Positions 1 through 51,611 of a stretch of DNA of 64,000 nt are shown in pieces. The notes under the pieces are model-generated. The model was not told the origin of the DNA, searched no databases, and was given only the letters and a program-made list of their open reading frames with translations. The number at the start of each line of letters is the position of its first letter. Within the stretch, counting starts at the first letter, position 1. This DNA is from Halogranum gelatinilyticum (lineage in GTDB: Archaea > Halobacteriota > Halobacteria > Halobacteriales > Haloferacaceae), in assembly GCF_900103715.1 (NCBI RefSeq), contig NZ_FNHL01000008.1, positions 1-64,000 on the forward strand. The letters are read 5' to 3'. The translations under genes and the position numbers were made by a program.

Positions 1-318
1 CGCGTAGTACCCGCGTGCCCATTTGATTTTCTCGCCGTTGTGGTCAGCGTGGCGGTGGTTGTATTTCCGCGAGCTAATCCCTTTGAACCAATTGGCGAGA
101 AGGGACGGGGCGTGCTTCGGTGGACTACTGACGAACAGGTGGATGTGGTCAGATTGGACTGTCAAGTCGATGATTTCGAGTCCTTTGTCGTCAGCGATTT
201 CGTGGAGAATGTCTCGCACACGGTCGCCAACCTCGTTAACCAGTACCGACTGTCGGTACTTGGGCAACCACACTATGTGGTAGTTAAGGTTGTAAGTGGC
301 GTGCCGTGTGGTCTTCAT
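1..318 (-). CDS. tnpA: IS200/IS605-family transposase TnpA, 3' end cut by window
   Basis: Y1 (HUH) transposase that moves IS200/IS605 elements as single-stranded DNA. Read from the start at 318 it gives 106 residues in one open frame to the window edge. The HUH metal-binding motif is visible as DHIHLF (His58 and His60), with the family-typical NYHIVWLPKYRQ region near residues 11-22. The catalytic tyrosine should lie past the window edge, so activity cannot be judged. The start ATG is followed upstream by a short AT-rich stretch and a hairpin at 421-442 that looks like the element end. No tnpB is visible in the window; it could lie to the left. Confidence 0.9.
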   Translation of the reverse strand, partial: MKTTRHATYNLNYHIVWLPKYRQSVLVNEVGDRVRDILHEIADDKGLEIIDLTVQSDHIHLFVSSPPKHAPSLLANWFKGISSRKYNHRHADHNGEKIKWARGYYA

Positions 319-420
319 CCGTACTACACACTATGTATCCAGAATATCTTAAAAACACGGTTCACGGTGGGAAATACAGCGATAACATCGTCGGTGGATA
401 TGTACGCTGTTGTCCGCTCG

Positions 421-442
421 ACCCGCGGCTAAAGACGCGGGT
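421..442. repeat. Subterminal hairpin of the IS200/IS605 element
   Basis: ACCCGCG (421-427) and CGCGGGT (436-442) are perfect inverted arms around an 8-base loop. A hairpin this close to the 5' side of tnpA is what the family uses as the transposase recognition structure at an element end. The exact cleavage site is not determined. Confidence 0.65.
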
Positions 443-497
443 ATGCGCTACGATTCTGTATCACGCCCATCAGCCTGATTGCTCGTTGTGACTTTCC

Positions 498-549
498 AAA
501 CAGACTGTATAGTATAACTATTCAGTATGACTATTCAGACCTATTGTTT
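498..549. repeat. 13-bp phased repeat array 1
   Basis: Four successive 13-base units. The two best are AGTATAACTattc at 511-523 and AGTATGACTattc at 524-536. The unit at 537 (AGACCTATTgttt) matches a unit of array 2 (AGTCTTATTgttt at 691). Confidence 0.6.
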
Positions 550-642
550 GGGCTGGTTTATTAGAAGAACCACGTTCCATTACACGTACCACCGCGATGC
601 GGCCTGTCGCCATCGGTACGGGCGATCACGCCACTGGTTCAA

Positions 643-716
643 AGTATTACTACTCAGTCTAACTATTTGGTTTGACTGACTAAACTTTGCAGTCTTATTG
701 TTTGGTCGGACTGAGT
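643..716. repeat. 13-bp phased repeat array 2
   Basis: Units AGTATTACTactc (643), AGTCTAACTattt (656), GGTTTGACTgact (669), then after a 9-base irregular stretch AGTCTTATTgttt (691) and GGTCGGACTgagt (704). Confidence 0.6.
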
Positions 717-962
717 CTTGTTTGGCGGAGAACGGACGACCTGCGGGACGGGTCGCGGCGCGACATCTGAGAGTTGCTCTCCAGGCCCTCGCGCGGACCG
801 GGACTCGTCGCCCCTCGAACTCAGCGTCGCCGTCGACGCCGACGTCGACCAGTGAGGCACTCGTCCGTGTGCTCCGGCGCGGACTGCTCGAGGAGCCAGA
901 GGAGTGATCGGTCGTTGTCGTCGGGAAAAGCCGCCGTACCGGCTGTCTCGTCGGATCGAACT

Positions 963-1027
963 GACGAGACTGCTTAGTTATACTGATTAGTATGACTGAT
1001 TCGTTTTACCAACTATTTCGACTGACT
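963..1027. repeat. 13-bp phased repeat array 3
   Basis: Five units every 13 bases from 963: GACGAGACTgctt, AGTTATACTgatt, AGTATGACTgatt, CGTTTTACCaact, ATTTCGACTgact. Units two and three also form a near-perfect inverted repeat (AGTTATACT / AGTATGACT) around gatt. The array ends about 65 bases past the 3' end of the exchanger gene, on the side away from that gene's promoter. Confidence 0.6.
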
Positions 1028-1091: not shown

Positions 1092-2129
1092 TCAGGCGAC
1101 TCTGATGACGCTCGTGATCCCGAGCGACTCGGCGACGACCCACGCGACGAAGAGCAGATACGCGACGAGCAGCGTGTACGCCTCCAGGCTCGTCACGGAG
1201 AGGTCGGTCCGGAGGAAGGAAAAGAGAAGCACAGTCGCGAGCGTGAGAACGCCGAGCATCGGGACGGCGACGGCGAAGTCGATGGTGACGCTGCCGACGA
1301 TGAGCACGCCGATAGGGATGGCGACGAGCAGGTCGAAGGTGTTCGAACCGAGGACGTTGCCGAGGCTCGTCACGCCCTTGTTAGCCTTCGCCGTGCGGAC
1401 GCTGACGAGCGTGTCCGGCAGACTCGTGGCCGCCGCGATGATGGTCACGCCCGCGAGGAACTCGGGGATACCGAACGTCGTCCCGAGCGACTCGACGCCG
1501 CCGACCAGCTGCTCGACGGCGACGAGGATGACGAGCAGGCTGACTGCGAGCTTGCCCCACTCGCGGAAGATGGAGACCCCGTCGGTGACCGTCTCGCCGT
1601 CGTGGTCGTTGACGTCCTGCCACTGAATGAAGAGATACAGCCCGTAAAGGAGCAGGGGGAGCATGGCGAGCGGCCGGGTGACCTGGCCGGTCAGGACCGG
1701 TCCGCCCGGGACGGGCAGATAGATGACCGCGAGCGCGAAGGTGACGACGACCGTCGAGACGGCGATCATGTAGAACTGTGCCTCCTTGTAGACGATGGTC
1801 CGGTTCGTCTCCAAGTTCCCGTCGGAGACGATACCCGACAGCGCGGGGATGACAAGGATGTTGAAGATGGCCGAGCCGACGATGGCGCCGACACCCATGT
1901 CGAACGTCCCCGCGAGCGCGGTGAAGACGACGCTCGCCAACTCGGGGAAACTGGAGCCGACGGCGACGACGATAGACCCCTGGACGACCGCGGGGAGGCC
2001 GTAGTAGCCCGAGAGCCGTTCGGCCGACTCTTCGAGCCAGCTGCTGCCGAACCAGATGAAGCCGGTCGCGACGAGGATGACGAGCACGTTGACGACCGGC
2101 GTGTCCGGGAAGAGACCACCGAGGACCAT
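1092..2129 (-). CDS. Calcium/sodium antiporter family (CaCA) membrane protein
   Basis: A 345-residue integral membrane protein of the Ca2+/cation antiporter superfamily (YrbG-like), which exchanges Ca2+ or Na+ across the cytoplasmic membrane. Two alpha repeats carry the ion-binding acidic motifs: GSSFPEL at residues 58-64 in the first half, and ATSLPD followed by GSNTFDLL in the second. About ten hydrophobic segments are spread over the length, and length fits the family. Start ATG at 2129 gives the first membrane segment directly. The gene faces the same way as the Lrp regulator upstream, 114 bases away. Ion specificity is not decided by the sequence. Confidence 0.92.
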   Translation of the reverse strand: MVLGGLFPDTPVVNVLVILVATGFIWFGSSWLEESAERLSGYYGLPAVVQGSIVVAVGSSFPELASVVFTALAGTFDMGVGAIVGSAIFNILVIPALSGIVSDGNLETNRTIVYKEAQFYMIAVSTVVVTFALAVIYLPVPGGPVLTGQVTRPLAMLPLLLYGLYLFIQWQDVNDHDGETVTDGVSIFREWGKLAVSLLVILVAVEQLVGGVESLGTTFGIPEFLAGVTIIAAATSLPDTLVSVRTAKANKGVTSLGNVLGSNTFDLLVAIPIGVLIVGSVTIDFAVAVPMLGVLTLATVLLFSFLRTDLSVTSLEAYTLLVAYLLFVAWVVAESLGITSVIRVA

Positions 2130-3070: not shown

Positions 3071-5248
3071 ATGAAGGAGTTAGAACGGGACCTCGGACTT
3101 CCTGCGGTCCTCGCCATCAGTATCGGTGCGATGATCGGCAGTGGGATCTTCATCCTCCCGGCACTCGCACTCGAAATCGCCGGACCGGCGGTCATCCTCG
3201 CCTACGCCCTCGCGGGCCTTCTCGTCGTCCCGGCGGCCCTCTCGAAGTCCGAGATGGCGACCGCGATGCCCGAGGCCGGTGGGACGTACATCTACATCGA
3301 GCGCGGCATGGGACCGTTGCTCGGGACTATCGCCGGCATCGGCACGTGGTTCTCCCTCTCGTTCAAGGGCGCGCTCGCGCTCGTCGGCGGCGTTCCCTAT
3401 CTGCTCTTGCTGTTCGACCTGCCGCTGAAGCCGGTCGCGCTCGGTCTCGCGGGGTTGCTCATCCTCATCAACCTCGTCGGCGCGAAACAGACCGGTCGGC
3501 TCCAGGTCGCCATCGTCGTCGTCATGCTGGCCGCCCTCGGCTGGTTCGCCGCCGGGAGCGCGCCGAGCGTCCAGTCGGCTAACTACGTCGGCTTCTTCGA
3601 CTCGGGTCTCGAGGGCATCCTCGCGGCGACCGGACTGGTGTTCGTCTCGTATGCGGGCGTCACGAAAGTCGCGAGCGTTGCCGAAGAGGTCGAAGACCCC
3701 GGCCGGAACATCCCGCTCGGCATCCTCGGCTCGCTCGCGTTCACCACGGTGCTCTACGTCGCCATCGTGGCTGTGTTGGTCGGCGTGACCGACCCCGGCA
3801 GCGTCGCCGGGTCGCTGACGCCGGTCGCCGTCGCCGCGGAGGCGACGCTCGGCCAGTTCGGCGTCGTTGCCGTCATCGCCGCCGCGATTCTCGCGCTCAT
3901 CTCGACGGCCAACGCGGGCATCCTCTCCTCGTCGCGCTATCCCTTCGCGATGAGCCGCGACCGCCTCGCCCCGCCGTCGCTCTCGAAGGTCTCCGAGCGG
4001 TTCGGGACGCCCGTCACCTCCATCACGCTCACGGGTGCGGTGCTCCTGCTGTTCATCGCGTTCGTCCCGATTCTGGACATCGCCAAACTCGCCAGCGCGT
4101 TCCAGATTCTGGTGTTCGCGCTCATCAACGTCGCCGTCATCGCCTTCCGCGAGGGTAGCGCGGAGTACGAACCCGAGTTCACCTCGCCGCTGTATCCCTG
4201 GATTCAGATCTTCGGTCTCGTCACCGGTGGACTCCTCCTGACGCAGATGGGCACGGTCGCCCTCGTCGGTGCGGCCGCCATCATAGTCGGCGGTGTCGCC
4301 TGGTTCTTCTTCTACGTCCGGCCCCGCGTTGACCGCGAGGGCGTAGCGACCGACGCGGTGCGCCGCCGTGTCGGCCGCGACCTCCTCTCGGAGACGGAGT
4401 CGGCCATGAACGACAGCCGTCGCGAGGTCCTCGTCGCGCTCACGAAGAACCTCGACGCCGACCGCGAGCGGTCGCTGGTCTCTATCGCCGCCGACCTCGT
4501 CCGGCCCGACGACGGCCGCGTGGTCGTCGTCCGATTCGAGGAGGTGCCCGACCAGGCACCGCTCACGGACGACCTGACGGTCCAGTCCCCCTCCGACCGC
4601 TCGTTCGAGACGCGGATGGCGTCGCTCTCGGAGGAGCTGGACGTCGACGTCGAGGCCGACGAGATCGTCAGCCACGACACGAAACACGCGGTCGTCAACT
4701 TCGCGGAAAACCGCGGAGTCGATACCATCATCGCCGAGCACGAACCGCTCCGGCTCCGCTCGCGGCTGCTCGGCGACCCCATCGACTGGGTCGTCCGCCA
4801 CGCCTCGTGCGACGTCCTCCTCGTCGACAACCTCGGGTACGACCTGCCGGCACGCATCGCACTCTCCAGCGACGGCGGCCCCTATCCACCGCTGGCAGTG
4901 AACGTCGCCGAGGCGATCGCGAAGGCAGACGGGAGTAAACTCTCGCTGTGGTATCCCGAGAACTCGACGGAGAGCGACCAGTACAAGCGGACCATCGACG
5001 AGTATCAGTCCGAGCTCTCGGCACTGCTCTCCGTCCCGGTGCGTTCGGAGCTGTTCCGGGCCGACGGCGGGCAGCCGTCGACGCCGGACGTGGTGGTGCG
5101 TCCCGGTTCCGACGAACGGCTCCGCAACGTCCTGTTCGACGACGGCCCGGTCTTCCCGAGTCCGGGCTGTACGACCATCACCGTCTACCAGCACGAATCG
5201 AGCCGTCCGCGGCTCGGCCGTCGGCTCCTCGAACGAGTCACCTTCTGA
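3071..5248 (+). CDS. APC-family amino-acid permease with C-terminal UspA domains
   Basis: A 725-residue fusion. Residues 1-420 are an APC-superfamily amino-acid transporter with about twelve membrane segments; the glycine-rich first segment reads IGAMIGSGIFILP and the family SYAGV motif is near residue 195. The rest, from about residue 450, is soluble and resembles two universal stress protein domains, one ending near residue 595 (DWVVRHASCDVLLV) and a more diverged one to the end. Such permease-UspA fusions are common in haloarchaea and are thought to gate transport by nucleotide or stress state. The Lrp gene next door suggests amino-acid control. Substrate is unknown. Confidence 0.9.
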   Translation: MKELERDLGLPAVLAISIGAMIGSGIFILPALALEIAGPAVILAYALAGLLVVPAALSKSEMATAMPEAGGTYIYIERGMGPLLGTIAGIGTWFSLSFKGALALVGGVPYLLLLFDLPLKPVALGLAGLLILINLVGAKQTGRLQVAIVVVMLAALGWFAAGSAPSVQSANYVGFFDSGLEGILAATGLVFVSYAGVTKVASVAEEVEDPGRNIPLGILGSLAFTTVLYVAIVAVLVGVTDPGSVAGSLTPVAVAAEATLGQFGVVAVIAAAILALISTANAGILSSSRYPFAMSRDRLAPPSLSKVSERFGTPVTSITLTGAVLLLFIAFVPILDIAKLASAFQILVFALINVAVIAFREGSAEYEPEFTSPLYPWIQIFGLVTGGLLLTQMGTVALVGAAAIIVGGVAWFFFYVRPRVDREGVATDAVRRRVGRDLLSETESAMNDSRREVLVALTKNLDADRERSLVSIAADLVRPDDGRVVVVRFEEVPDQAPLTDDLTVQSPSDRSFETRMASLSEELDVDVEADEIVSHDTKHAVVNFAENRGVDTIIAEHEPLRLRSRLLGDPIDWVVRHASCDVLLVDNLGYDLPARIALSSDGGPYPPLAVNVAEAIAKADGSKLSLWYPENSTESDQYKRTIDEYQSELSALLSVPVRSELFRADGGQPSTPDVVVRPGSDERLRNVLFDDGPVFPSPGCTTITVYQHESSRPRLGRRLLERVTF

Positions 5249-5834
5249 GAGCGGCGCGGCAGGGCAGCCGTCCCCTGGCTGAATCCGGTCCGAAACGGGT
5301 TGACAGCCCCGGACCTCGAGTGGCCCATCGCCGTCTCGGGAGACCGTCCACGCGACGCGACTCCGAGACACCGCCGAACGTCGTGGTCCCGAGGCTAAGA
5401 GGCGGCTGTCTGGGTAAATAATAGTGTTTAATAAATGCAATGCTATTTGTTAAATCTGCAACTCTGAGACCCCTATGCTCTCTCACTGTTGGGCCACTCG
5501 GCGAGTCTCTGTCTCCGCTCGATACACTGCGAAGAGGACGGGGACCACCAAACCAAAGTAAGCTGATAAACCTCATAATACCGCCCTTGTTCGGCTCTTT
5601 CGCAGCGAACATTCAGCTTCGACACCTCGGGTGAGACCAAACTACGAGTCGGCTCGGACGCCGACGTCGATGGGCCGAGATGTCTAGAGAGCTGTTGGAC
5701 GGACTGACTACAGTCGACTTCATAAGTTCTAGTAATTCACAATACTATCGCCGCTCGGCGACCGTTCGGTCTGCCGGTCGAGCGAAGTCTCCCGGCGGGG
5801 TCCGACGGCGTCATCCGAGGGACGCTCGACCCGT
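5249..5834. other. 586-bp gap between convergent genes
   Basis: No gene recognised. An AT-rich imperfect inverted repeat lies at 5427-5454: TTTAATAAAT and ATTTGTTAAA, one mismatch, 8-base spacer. The region lies between two 3' ends, so it need not hold promoters. The rest is plain sequence with no repeat or RNA that I can identify. Confidence 0.4.
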
Positions 5835-6452
5835 TCAGACGCCTCCGACGCCGGGGGTGACACCGGTGTCGACGGGTTCCGACAGGCTCCGGGCACCGAG
5901 TGCGATCCCCACCATCGACAGCCCGGTGACGAGGAGGTTCACGCCGAACATGACGCCGACCGCCCAGAGTGCGGTCGAGGGAAAGCCAGCCCACAGGAGG
6001 AGGGCGAGGATGATGCCGATGACACCGCTCGCCACTGTCCAGAGCGAGCGTCTCTCACCGCGAAGACGGAGTCCCATCGCGACCTCGACGACACCCGACG
6101 CGAGGAGATAGCCGACGACGAGCAGCGTCAACGTCAACAGTCCGAAGACCGGGTTCAGGAAGACGGCGAGACCGGCGAGCAGGGTGACCGCACCGACCGC
6201 GATCTGCCAGACGAACCCGCGCCATCCGGTGGCTCTGAACGCACCGATCGCCTGCGTCACACCGCCAACGATGAGGAGCACCCCGACGAGAGTCGCGATC
6301 GACAGCCCGGTCAGGAAGGGCGCGAGCGTCGCGACCAGTCCGAGGAGCGCGACGACGACGCCAGCGGCGAGAAGCGGCCGCCAGTTCGACTGAAGACTGC
6401 TCCCGAGTGGTTCGTCCGCTGCACCGGCCGATGGATTGCTTGTACTGGACAT
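5835..6452 (-). CDS. HdeD-family (DUF308) membrane protein
   Basis: A 205-residue protein with six hydrophobic segments in three hairpin pairs, matching the HdeD/DUF308 family. Typical signatures are the repeated GLVATLAPF-like and GVLLIVGGVTQAIGAFRA segments. E. coli HdeD is linked to acid resistance, but function in archaea is not known. The N-terminal 25 residues are polar and serine-rich, ahead of the first membrane segment. A second DUF308 protein is encoded at 14865-15449. It is divergent from the metallophosphoesterase gene. Confidence 0.85.
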   Translation of the reverse strand: MSSTSNPSAGAADEPLGSSLQSNWRPLLAAGVVVALLGLVATLAPFLTGLSIATLVGVLLIVGGVTQAIGAFRATGWRGFVWQIAVGAVTLLAGLAVFLNPVFGLLTLTLLVVGYLLASGVVEVAMGLRLRGERRSLWTVASGVIGIILALLLWAGFPSTALWAVGVMFGVNLLVTGLSMVGIALGARSLSEPVDTGVTPGVGGV

Positions 6453-6673
6453 AGCTAGCGTATCTGTTGGTCGGCAGTGAGATTAAGCAGTCTCGCCGAT
6501 TCGTCCGAGAGTCTCGGAATCGGGACGGTCGAGTTGAGAGGCGGTCGACACGCCGTTACTCACCGGGGGTCTCCCACTACTATCAAGTCGGTAGCCAGCG
6601 TAGGTGGTTCGGGCGATTACCACCTGCTACGGACGGAGAGCGGGGGCGAACAGAGCCGATAACCGCGAGACGT

Positions 6674-25510: not shown

Positions 25511-25545
25511 GGTTATACTAGTTACACTAATGAGTTATACTCAAT
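25511..25545. repeat. 13-bp-type repeat array 4
   Basis: GGTTATACT (25511) abuts AGTTACACTaatg (25520-25532) and AGTTATACTcaat (25533-25545). The units resemble those at 0.5-1.0 kb. The array lies 40 bases past the recombinase stop codon. Confidence 0.5.
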
Positions 25546-25584: not shown

Positions 25585-26709
25585 TCACTCGTCGATAAGC
25601 TCGCTGACGTGGTCGGCGCGTTCCTCGGCTTCGATGTGGGAGTAGGCATCGCGCGTCGTCTGTTGGCTTCGGTGGCGGAGGAGATCCTGTGCAGCACCGC
25701 GGTCCTTCCGGAAGACCACGTCGCCGATGCCGCGGCGGGCGGCGTGGAGCTTCAGATACTCGCCGTCAATGTCGATGTCGGCCTCCTCGCAGAGCGTCCG
25801 GACGCGCTTTCGCATCCCGTCGACAGTCACTGCTGGAGGATCGATACCATACTCGGTGAGAACGCCGTCGACGTCCCGCTCACCGAGGAGTGACTCGATT
25901 TCGTCGTCCTCAAGCCCGTTCTCCTGGAGTCCTTCTCGGGCGGCACGGTACTTCGAGGGTGCGTGCTCGGTGGGGAAGACGGGCCACTCGTCGCTCGGCG
26001 GGTCGAGCAGCTCGCGGTATCGGCGGACGGCGGACCGCGCCTGCGACGGAAGCGGCGTCCGTTCCCACTCGCCGGACTTCCCGTAGACCGTAAGCACACC
26101 ACGGTCGAGATCGACGCGTTTCCACCGCAGCCCCTGTCGTCCCTCGCGACTGTCACCGGATGCCCGGAGTACCTCGGCCCCGCGCACGCCGCTAAAGGCC
26201 AGAAGCGAGACGAACGCCCGGTCCCGACATTCGACGAGCGCGTCGGTTCCGCGGTCGTCGACGGCGTCGCGGGCGCGTTCCCCGACGAACTGGAGGAAGC
26301 GATCACGCGTCTCGGGGTCCCAGAACTGCTGTGTACGCTCTCTGTCGTCCGTGGGTAGTGCCTCGCGAGCCCGCTGTTTGAGTGCCGGGTTCTGGCCGAG
26401 ATGGCCGTCGCGGACGCACCACGAGAGAAACCCCGAGAGCCAGTCGAAGTACGTGTGGGCGGTCGTCGCTTCGATGTGGCCGTCGGCAGCGCGGTGACGC
26501 AGCCGCTGGGCGTACCGTCGCATCGTCCGCGTCCCGCTGTCGTCATCGTCGAGGACTGCGAAGTCCAGGCTCCCGCGCTCTGCGGCCCAGTCGGCCCACG
26601 TCGTCACGGCCGTCCGCGCCGTCCGCTTCGAGTACGACGAGTCGAGCGAGCGGACGTAGGCGTCGATAGCGCGGCGGACGGCATCCTTGCCGTCACTCAC
26701 GGCCGACAC
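25585..26709 (-). CDS. Tyrosine recombinase (XerC/D-like integrase)
   Basis: A 374-residue tyrosine recombinase. A SAM-like core-binding domain occupies about residues 8-110. The catalytic set is complete: Arg176 in FSGVRGAE, Lys211 in YGKSGEW, His322 and Arg325 in LHAARR, His346 in LLRHRS and Tyr356 in RDAYSHI. It cuts and joins DNA through the tyrosine. No tRNA gene, flanking direct repeat or other mobile genes were seen, so it may be a resident haloarchaeal recombinase rather than part of an integrated element. The GTG start at 26709 is assumed; a GTG at 26700 is possible. Confidence 0.88.
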   Translation of the reverse strand: MSAVSDGKDAVRRAIDAYVRSLDSSYSKRTARTAVTTWADWAAERGSLDFAVLDDDDSGTRTMRRYAQRLRHRAADGHIEATTAHTYFDWLSGFLSWCVRDGHLGQNPALKQRAREALPTDDRERTQQFWDPETRDRFLQFVGERARDAVDDRGTDALVECRDRAFVSLLAFSGVRGAEVLRASGDSREGRQGLRWKRVDLDRGVLTVYGKSGEWERTPLPSQARSAVRRYRELLDPPSDEWPVFPTEHAPSKYRAAREGLQENGLEDDEIESLLGERDVDGVLTEYGIDPPAVTVDGMRKRVRTLCEEADIDIDGEYLKLHAARRGIGDVVFRKDRGAAQDLLRHRSQQTTRDAYSHIEAEERADHVSELIDE

Positions 26710-49808: not shown

Positions 49809-51611
49809 ATGTCATCTGATAGCAGGCGGGAGTACGATAGACACATGAGCCGCCGGAGGCTGCTGGCGGCGGCCGGAGCGTCCGGGGTTGCGGCCCTCGC
49901 AGGCTGTTCCGGTGGAAATACCGAACCGACAGATTCGGGTTCCGGTTCTGGTTCCGGTTCGGGGGACACAACAGACGAGTCGGGTGAGTCGGGGATGTCC
50001 GTCGCCGATGCGTCGTTCTCCAACGCCTACACGGGCAACCCGGTCGACCTCCACTTCAACGCCTCGGCAACCCAGAACTTCGCCTGGCCTGCCGGGCGAG
50101 CCGTGTTCGCGCCGTTCCTGAAGTACTCGTTCAACAACTCGGAGTTCATGTACGGCGCGCTCTCCGACCTGCAGATCGAAGACCAGGAAGTCACGATGAC
50201 GTTCCGTGACGACCTCACGTGGAGTAACGGCGACGAGTGGACCACAGAGGACCTGGAGGTCCAGCTCCAGCTGGCCCAGAAGACCGGCAGTTCGCTGTTC
50301 GGCTACGTCGACGACTTCGAGATGGTCGACGACAAGACGGGGAAACTGATCCTGTCGGGACCGACGAACCCCCAGATCATCAAGTTCGAGCTGACGAACT
50401 TCTTCGTCGACACGAAGGCAGAGACCCACGAACAGTGGCTGGACGCGCCCGAAGCAGACTTCCTGCAGTGGGCGTGGGAAGACCCTGTCGCGAGCGGAAT
50501 GTTCCAGTTCGAGAACAAAGACCAGCAGGCCTTCGAGTTCTCGCGTAACCCCGAGTTCTACAAGTCCGACAACGTCAACTTCGAGAGCTATCTCCTCGAG
50601 AGCTACGGTGGGAACACCGCCCAGCACCAGGCACTCATCTCCGGCACTGAGGTGGACGCGTCGACGAGTCTGTTCACACCGCCGGAAATCGCAGACCGCT
50701 TCCCGGACCACGTCGTCGAGGTCAACATTCCGGCGAAGTGGGGCTACGGTATCGTCTTCAACCACAACGACCCGCACTTCGGCAAGCGGAACGTCCGACA
50801 GGCTGTCGCTCACGTCATCAACCGGCAGGCACTCGTCGACAACGCCGGGCCGCGGACGAAGTTCACCGCGCCGATTCCCTGTGGTATCGCGCCGCGCGAC
50901 CAAGAGTACTGGCTCGGTGACTGGTACGACGACTTCGAAACCTACGGCGCGGACGAGACGCAGGCAGAGCAGGCGACGCAGCTGCTCGAAGAAGCCGGCT
51001 ACACCAAGGTGGACGGCACCTGGCAGGACAGTGAAGGCGAAACCCTCGGTGGGGAGTACTTCTCGCCGTCGGGGTGGACCGACTGGACGACGATGACCCA
51101 GACGGTCGTCAGCCAGCTCAACGAGTTCGGCTTCGACTTCTCGGTCAGCACGAAGCCGACGAACGACTGGTTCGGCCAGTACTCCAACAGCAACTTCTCG
51201 ATGGGGTCGCTGTACTGGCTGCCGGGCGGATCGCGTTCGTCGTTCCCGTACTTCCCGCTGTACTACCAGCTGTGGGCGACCGACATCGGTGGCGGCCACG
51301 GCTACCGCGAGAAGGCCGACTCCGAGCAGACCATCCCCAGCCGCGACGGTGGCGAGACGACGCTCAATCCGCTGGAGGTCACGCGTAACATCGCTCGACA
51401 GGCGAACGACGACGAGTCGCGGCCCTACGTCCAGCAGGCAGCGTGGCACAACCACATCGAACTGCCGTTCCTCGGGCTGGTCTCGAAGTTCGAGCAGTCC
51501 TGGGTGACCGACGACGAGTGGACGGTTGCCAGTGAAGACAGTCCCAACCGCCGTGTCAAGTGGCCCCCGTTCTGGTGGGTCCACGAGGGCGAGCTGCAGT
51601 ACCAGGGATAA
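49809..51611 (+). CDS. Solute-binding lipoprotein of Opp/Dpp-type ABC importer
   Basis: A 600-residue family-5 binding protein. The Tat motif MSRRRLLAAAG leads to the lipobox ALAGC, so Cys33 would be lipidated. A serine-glycine linker follows and then the large two-lobe fold. Family 5 proteins bind peptides but also oligosaccharides, such as cello- and xylo-oligomers in thermophiles. The ATG at 49809 is chosen because a TTTATAAT element at 49775-49785 is correctly spaced. First gene of the importer operon, next to GH67. Confidence 0.9.
   Translation: MSSDSRREYDRHMSRRRLLAAAGASGVAALAGCSGGNTEPTDSGSGSGSGSGDTTDESGESGMSVADASFSNAYTGNPVDLHFNASATQNFAWPAGRAVFAPFLKYSFNNSEFMYGALSDLQIEDQEVTMTFRDDLTWSNGDEWTTEDLEVQLQLAQKTGSSLFGYVDDFEMVDDKTGKLILSGPTNPQIIKFELTNFFVDTKAETHEQWLDAPEADFLQWAWEDPVASGMFQFENKDQQAFEFSRNPEFYKSDNVNFESYLLESYGGNTAQHQALISGTEVDASTSLFTPPEIADRFPDHVVEVNIPAKWGYGIVFNHNDPHFGKRNVRQAVAHVINRQALVDNAGPRTKFTAPIPCGIAPRDQEYWLGDWYDDFETYGADETQAEQATQLLEEAGYTKVDGTWQDSEGETLGGEYFSPSGWTDWTTMTQTVVSQLNEFGFDFSVSTKPTNDWFGQYSNSNFSMGSLYWLPGGSRSSFPYFPLYYQLWATDIGGGHGYREKADSEQTIPSRDGGETTLNPLEVTRNIARQANDDESRPYVQQAAWHNHIELPFLGLVSKFEQSWVTDDEWTVASEDSPNRRVKWPPFWWVHEGELQYQG

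Follow-up and report, generated by a model that had tools for sequence, protein, structure and literature searches.

Phased arrays in the window

The window, a 64,000-nucleotide stretch of Halogranum gelatinilyticum DNA from the 102.5-kb contig C8, opens in a truncated mobile element. Positions 1 to 464 (minus strand) hold the end of an ISHla21-like IS200/IS605 element whose tnpA gene is cut by the contig end (Pfam Y1_Tnp, 2e-30). To the right, at 1092 to 2129 (minus strand), lies an open reading frame resembling sodium/calcium antiporters, with a plasmid homologue annotated as a sodium:calcium antiporter. In the noncoding DNA between them, the initial annotation had described at least thirteen units recurring every 13 bases in three AT-rich patches. 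The repeats are present as described, with a step of exactly 13 bp, about 12 to 15 units in patches 1–3 together, and 32–40% GC. Each unit is near-palindromic, AGTNNNACT or, in its fuller form, AGTNNNACTNNNN, which combines a near-palindrome of 9 bp with a spacer of 4 bp.

Patch 1 (472 to 549) begins directly beside the IS end, outside which the array lies, and contains six units in register, starting at 472, 485, 498, 511, 524, and 537 and matching 4, 4, 4, 6, 6, and 4, respectively, of the six palindrome bases AGT...ACT. The outer three (472, 485, and 498) are weak, and the strong core at 511–549 reads AGTATAACTATTC AGTATGACTATTC AGACCTATTGTTT. Patch 2a (643 to 681) has three units (643, 656, and 669, with 6, 6, and 5 matches) and is followed, after a 9-bp shift of phase, by patch 2b (691 to 716) with two (691 and 704, five matches each). 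Patch 3 (976 to 1027) has four units, at 976, 989, 1002, and 1015, with 6, 6, 4, and 5 matches. Patches 1–3 are mutually out of phase, and no strand is assigned to any array. Units do match between patches, as the annotation had also claimed: AGACCTATTGTTT at 537 and AGTCTTATTGTTT at 691 are identical at 11 of 13 positions.

The phasing exceeds chance. Over 465–1092, self-matching is best at lag 13 (z = 5.5). Exact phased pairs occur four times in the 64-kb window versus never in 200 dinucleotide shuffles, and of the other spacings between 9 and 30, none yields a AGTNNNACT pair in the window. We also built a weight matrix from 43 parA-proximal units of other contigs and genomes, with C8 excluded, and compared its scores on C8 with those on 60 random copies of the contig (maximum, 22.9). 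Exactly four patches exceeded this background. Patch 1 (chain 470–547) scored 46.6, patch 2a 42.2, and patch 3 55.7, the highest value on the contig; patch 2b falls within an overlapping chain (650–714) whose score of 22.2 is at the edge of the null. The fourth, an array at 25520 to 25545 that the initial annotation had missed, consists of two units, AGTTACACTAATG AGTTATACTCAAT, with a chain score of 27.2 and a lag-13 z of 2.8 (p = 0.006). It is flanked by a small ASCH-like gene and by a tyrosine recombinase/integrase gene (25585 to 26709, minus strand; Pfam Phage_integrase, 7e-8), whose 3′ end adjoins it. An integrase gene also stands directly before the parA array on pNG700 and pHH400.

Two aspects of the surroundings bear on what the patches could serve. 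First, the antiporter gene has its 3′ end toward patches 1–3, which thus lie outside its promoter; with the IS on their other side, we rejected the idea that they are the promoter operator of a neighboring gene. Second, the replication or partition gene that the initial annotation had suggested seeking on the left is absent: the left neighbor is the IS tnpA, and tblastn over all 102.5 kb of C8 detected neither parA nor its partner gene (see below). A parA just across the left IS was rejected as well, as the contigs able to adjoin that end (C5 by its right end, C6 by its left end) have no close parA. DNA searches with positions 430–1100 or 465–1092 for an orthologous region elsewhere returned only low-complexity matches and one array. 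C8 also contains two duplications of 85–86% identity, pairing 50006–51602 with 65575–67174 and 77146–78008 with 94072–94934.

A matching array before parA on contig C10

Our genome-wide tests were pattern and protein searches. In the 3.77-Mb assembly, AGTNNNACTNNTNAGTNNNACT has 13 matches with zero or one mismatch, all on C8 or at C10:5046–5080, and the reversed-pattern control has none in this genome. Phased pairs are thus confined to these two contigs. The annotation had proposed such a genome scan and had named scattering of the same units without phasing through other AT-rich haloarchaeal intergenic DNA as the refuting result. Single unphased units do occur genome-wide, at about the control rate (32 + 27 versus 20 + 27), but phased pairs are not scattered in this genome.

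On C10 the repeats form a seven-unit chain (5031–5121; matrix score, 73.1) that ends where a parA gene (5120–5998) starts. This gene encodes a Walker ATPase with the deviant Walker A motif EAGGVGKTT (Pfam AAA_31, 2e-21; CbiA, 6e-16), and its best matches among PDB sequences are Soj/ParA segregation proteins. It is the only full-strength parA match in the genome. Judged by these similarities, C10, and not C8, would supply the ParA-family ATPase of a type I partition system. The parA end is overlapped by a small gene (5998–6648) for an acidic partner protein. Two orc1/cdc6 genes are likewise present on C10; one lies upstream and ends a few hundred base pairs before the array.

Several observations bear on whether the two contigs share a replicon. 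The IS end at C8 1–464 is also the left end of C10 (99.3% identity to C10:1–424), and at their other ends the two contigs each carry half of a tnpB element of one kind, through which they could be joined. C8–C10 is one of two compatible joins, the other being C8–C2, with the IS sides of C5 and C6 completing the graph. Contigs of this assembly break in two types of repeated transposon, ISHla21-like tnpA/tnpB elements and solo tnpB elements, with breaks at the right end of C5, the left end of C6, C8, C10, the right end of C2, and the left end of C4; these are compatible with a C5–C8–C10–C6 replicon of ∼478 kb. GC content (61–65% for C8, 62–65% for C10, 65–70% for most chromosomal samples, and 54–60% for C5/C6) is not decisive for the replicon of C8. 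Because a compatible join exists and the arrays are confined to both contigs, it is plausible that the C8 arrays belong to the replicon of the C10 parA.

parA-linked arrays across haloarchaea

Relatives of the C10 ParA are found in ∼180 plasmid records, all haloarchaeal among the records listed, and the partner gene in at least 130, annotated as hypothetical. Searches with the same pattern located arrays directly before a parA-partner pair at 17 loci in other genera. For 26 parA genes drawn from many genera, we compared self-matching in the 250 upstream base pairs, at lags 5 through 40, with that in dinucleotide shuffles; the z values, when combined, are 23.0 at lag 13, 22.2 at lag 26, and 14.8 at lag 39. 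The next-best lags, 17, 35, 9, and 22, reach at most 7.5; they differ from 13 or 26 by 4 or 9, as expected for a near-palindromic unit with a 4-bp spacer. The parA-proximal array extends to ∼30 bp from the parA start. The place before parA and the 13-bp phase are constant, whereas the sequence of the unit varies between plasmids: this genome and the Halomarina plasmids have AGTNNNACT, pNRC200 and pHME132 a TGTTCA type, pHALXA02 and pHH126 a CTTAG/TAGATAAG type, and Halorussus halophilus and Halostagnicola a CAAATG type. Neither ParA nor the partner had viral relatives in our searches. Among exact-pattern matches, we set aside as non-arrays a perfect 22-bp palindrome, AGTACAACTACTGAGTTGTACT, which occurs in one genus with no parA nearby. 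It and close variants recur at eight loci in several genomes of that genus, sometimes as two copies 2–4 kb apart, and are possibly coding.

Such arrays also occur away from parA. On complete circular Halomarina plasmids, they occur in PSR21 (1.16 Mb, parA at 597 kb) at 537243–537307, 696140–696230, 696348–696399, and 722828–722905; in BND7 (617 kb, parA at 342 kb) at 226911–226975 and 400628–400744; and in BCD28 (94.5 kb, parA at 129) at 68398–68449. These sites are 26 to 125 kb from parA, and their scores, between 46 and 69, compare with 22.9 as the highest null value per 102 kb. On BND7 and BCD28, the annotated distal sites are intergenic. In another genome (G164:C8), a nine-unit array lies 4 kb from the parA array of the same contig. 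Outside the parA region, pNRC200 and pHME132 have no convincing arrays. Thus, dispersed copies are real but not universal. Two further occurrences deserve mention. Two nine-unit arrays are adjacent in a genome of another genus (G254:C3, 284066–284182 and 284247–284363), and a five-unit array of the type seen in the window lies amid phage/virus structural-like genes on a 43.9-kb contig of Haladaptatus litoreus (1813–1877), with no parA within the 8 kb examined. Partition-type sites may be used by a provirus, too.

The partner protein as a candidate adaptor

The gene following parA is small, encodes an acidic product, and overlaps or abuts the parA end at 27 of 27 loci checked; by this arrangement, the putative adaptor gene adjoins parA in the same orientation. 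Its product family begins with a conserved N terminus of the MKxGxGxDPF type and ends in a conserved domain of ∼80 residues, the two being separated by a long, variable acidic linker. Within the C-terminal domain, a five-residue, strand-like segment, the predicted DNA contact, varies with the DNA unit: QFFLR or QYFLR accompanies AGTNNNACT, PLFLQ accompanies GTTCA, QLHLQ accompanies CTTAG, and TFFVH accompanies CAAATG. Across 24 loci, similarity of arrays correlates with similarity of segments (Mantel r = 0.54). The partial correlation is 0.32 given ParA identity and 0.31 given the rest of the domain, with a permutation p of 0.0002 that is optimistic, as the plasmids are related. From this covariation, the partner is probably the protein that binds the 13-bp units.

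The family to which this predicted DNA binder belongs is less clear. Searches of the partner against Pfam and NCBIfam gave no family match, including any known DNA-binding family, and the adaptor profile matched no PDB sequence. A strand followed by helices is expected for a ribbon-helix-helix adaptor, and in the sequence the strand-like QFFLR is followed by predicted helices. The structure models, however, are of low confidence (pLDDT 53–57), too weak to decide the fold, and the monomer model lacks the strand; no profile match to the ribbon-helix-helix fold was obtained. Two established classes were considered and rejected. An HTH-ParB (CTPase) of the ParABS type does not fit a partner without a Pfam or NCBIfam match. 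SegAB does not fit an adaptor profile without Pfam, NCBIfam, or PDB matches, a separation from SegB that is based on profile searches.

Discussion

We favor the view, with a probability of roughly two in three, that the patches on C8 are additional parS-like, centromere-type cis-sites of a type I ParA partition system whose adaptor family has not been described before. We infer the protein binding, ParA recruitment, repression, and segregation that this view entails. The cassette would consist of a 13-bp-phased array, then parA, then the overlapping gene for a small acidic adaptor, with the array in front of parA as the candidate centromere. Adaptor dimers would bind successive near-palindromic units; as 13 bp correspond to ∼1.24 helical turns, or ∼86 degrees net per dimer, the dimers would wind around the DNA. 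The parA-proximal array might also repress the operon. On the nucleoid, the adaptor N terminus would recruit ParA and trigger it to move plasmid copies apart, and extra arrays, including the four in the window, would provide more docking sites and thus a dispersed centromere. On plasmid pSM19035, which bears the most thoroughly studied analogue, at least four contiguous repeats are needed for full ParA activation (PMC9499535). By analogy, arrays of at least four units might load enough adaptor to trigger ParA, and two-unit sites such as that at 25520 may be weak.

This picture can be extended. Haloarchaeal megaplasmids might in general possess a dispersed, multisite centromere, in which the adaptor reads a 13-bp-phased code that is specific to plasmid type and defines incompatibility groups. 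With arrays distributed across tens to hundreds of kilobases, large polyploid replicons could then be tagged and moved simultaneously from several points. We put this forward tentatively, as a possibility that we hold to be somewhat short of even odds.

Several other explanations must be weighed. First, the arrays could be adaptor sites that act solely as transcription operators, in autoregulation of parA and control of distal genes, with no role as a centromere. The closeness of the parA-proximal array to the parA start would suit an operator, and some distal arrays precede a gene, a thioesterase gene in the case of 400628–400744 on BND7. But patches 1–3, between the antiporter 3′ end and the IS, have no obvious promoter to control, and arrays of up to nine units are long for simple operators. 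Moreover, the comparable pSM19035 arrays serve as both operator and centromere (PMC9499535). A purely regulatory role thus seems unlikely.

Second, the C8 patches could be functionless relics of a parA cassette that was lost or shuffled by the neighboring IS. This would account for patch 1 lying directly beside the IS end, for its degenerate outer units, for the absence of parA from C8, and for a region that has no orthologue elsewhere except in its array motif. Decay of this kind is difficult to reconcile, however, with four patches over 25 kb that hold an exact 13-bp phase, with strong cores that retain all six palindrome bases, with the lack of any trace of parA or partner sequence nearby, and with the similar distal patches borne by intact plasmids. 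We therefore consider it quite improbable that the patches are mere remnants.

Third, the repeats could be replication iterons bound by Orc1/Cdc6 or another Rep protein. The initial annotation had likened them to an iteron or multimer-binding array, and of these the multimer-binding part now appears tied to partition, the same unit and phasing being found before parA on C10 and in many haloarchaea. Iterons are indeed phased repeats, and one orc1/cdc6 gene of C10 ends close to the array. Yet arrays track parA and not orc1/cdc6: the genome has ∼12 Cdc6_C loci, most without such arrays, and arrays on only two contigs; elsewhere arrays accompany parA even without an adjacent orc1; and no initiator gene lies near the C8 patches. 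A replication role is thus very improbable. Finally, chance likeness in AT-rich intergenic DNA, which the low GC content of the patches might suggest, is refuted by the shuffles, by patch scores about twice the maximum of the matrix null, and by the empty reversed-pattern control.

If the partition reading is correct, the 13-bp phase provides a sequence rule that marks a candidate centromere on ∼180 haloarchaeal plasmids, including pNRC200, pNG700, pHH400, and pHME132, which belong to genetically tractable laboratory species. With a candidate binding protein named, both the mechanism and its plasmid specificity become testable. Little is known of how archaea inherit their DNA, and the arrays bear on the plasmid segregation part of that problem.

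The proposed cassette can be placed among known partition systems. It resembles ParF-ParG-parH of TP228, in which a small ParA and a small adaptor are autoregulated from upstream repeats. The TP228 system differs in being bacterial and in having another unit length and another adaptor family. ParG is a centromere-binding protein (PMC9178275). Within archaea, a 2025 survey found that a bacterial-type ParB beside ParA (parAB) is essentially absent (PMC12704722), and a review counts among unsettled questions what archaeal plasmid centromeres are and whether they are clustered or dispersed (PMC5120986). In Sulfolobus SegAB, as in the haloarchaeal cassette, the gene for an archaeal ParA is followed and overlapped by that for a small adaptor, and adaptor sites, putative ones in the haloarchaeal case, lie upstream of the operon (PMC5120986). 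SegAB, however, is chromosomal and has two single imperfect palindromes upstream, in contrast to the long 13-bp-phased arrays on plasmids here. The AspA-ParB-ParA system of pNOB8 is likewise a ParA-based partition system of an archaeal plasmid, in which dimers starting from a site upstream extend along the DNA in a superhelix (PMC5120986), but it uses three proteins, including ParB, and one 23-bp palindrome, whereas we find two proteins and an explicit array.

The δ/ω (ParA/ParB-RHH) system of pSM19035 offers a further parallel. It, too, pairs a small ParA with a small adaptor, and the plasmid carries multiple parS arrays, built from short phased repeats, that overlap the promoters of partition genes (PMC9499535). 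Its repeats, however, are 7-bp nonpalindromic heptads rather than 13-bp near-palindromic units, its ω protein is a proven ribbon-helix-helix protein, whereas the haloarchaeal adaptor has no detectable family match, and the haloarchaeal arrays lie up to ∼125 kb from parA. In open-access full texts on haloarchaeal partition, ParA, and repeats, we found no description of the array or the adaptor. Type I partition sites as such are known; what appears new in the proposed system is the distinctive 13-bp phase, the undescribed adaptor, and the dispersed copies.
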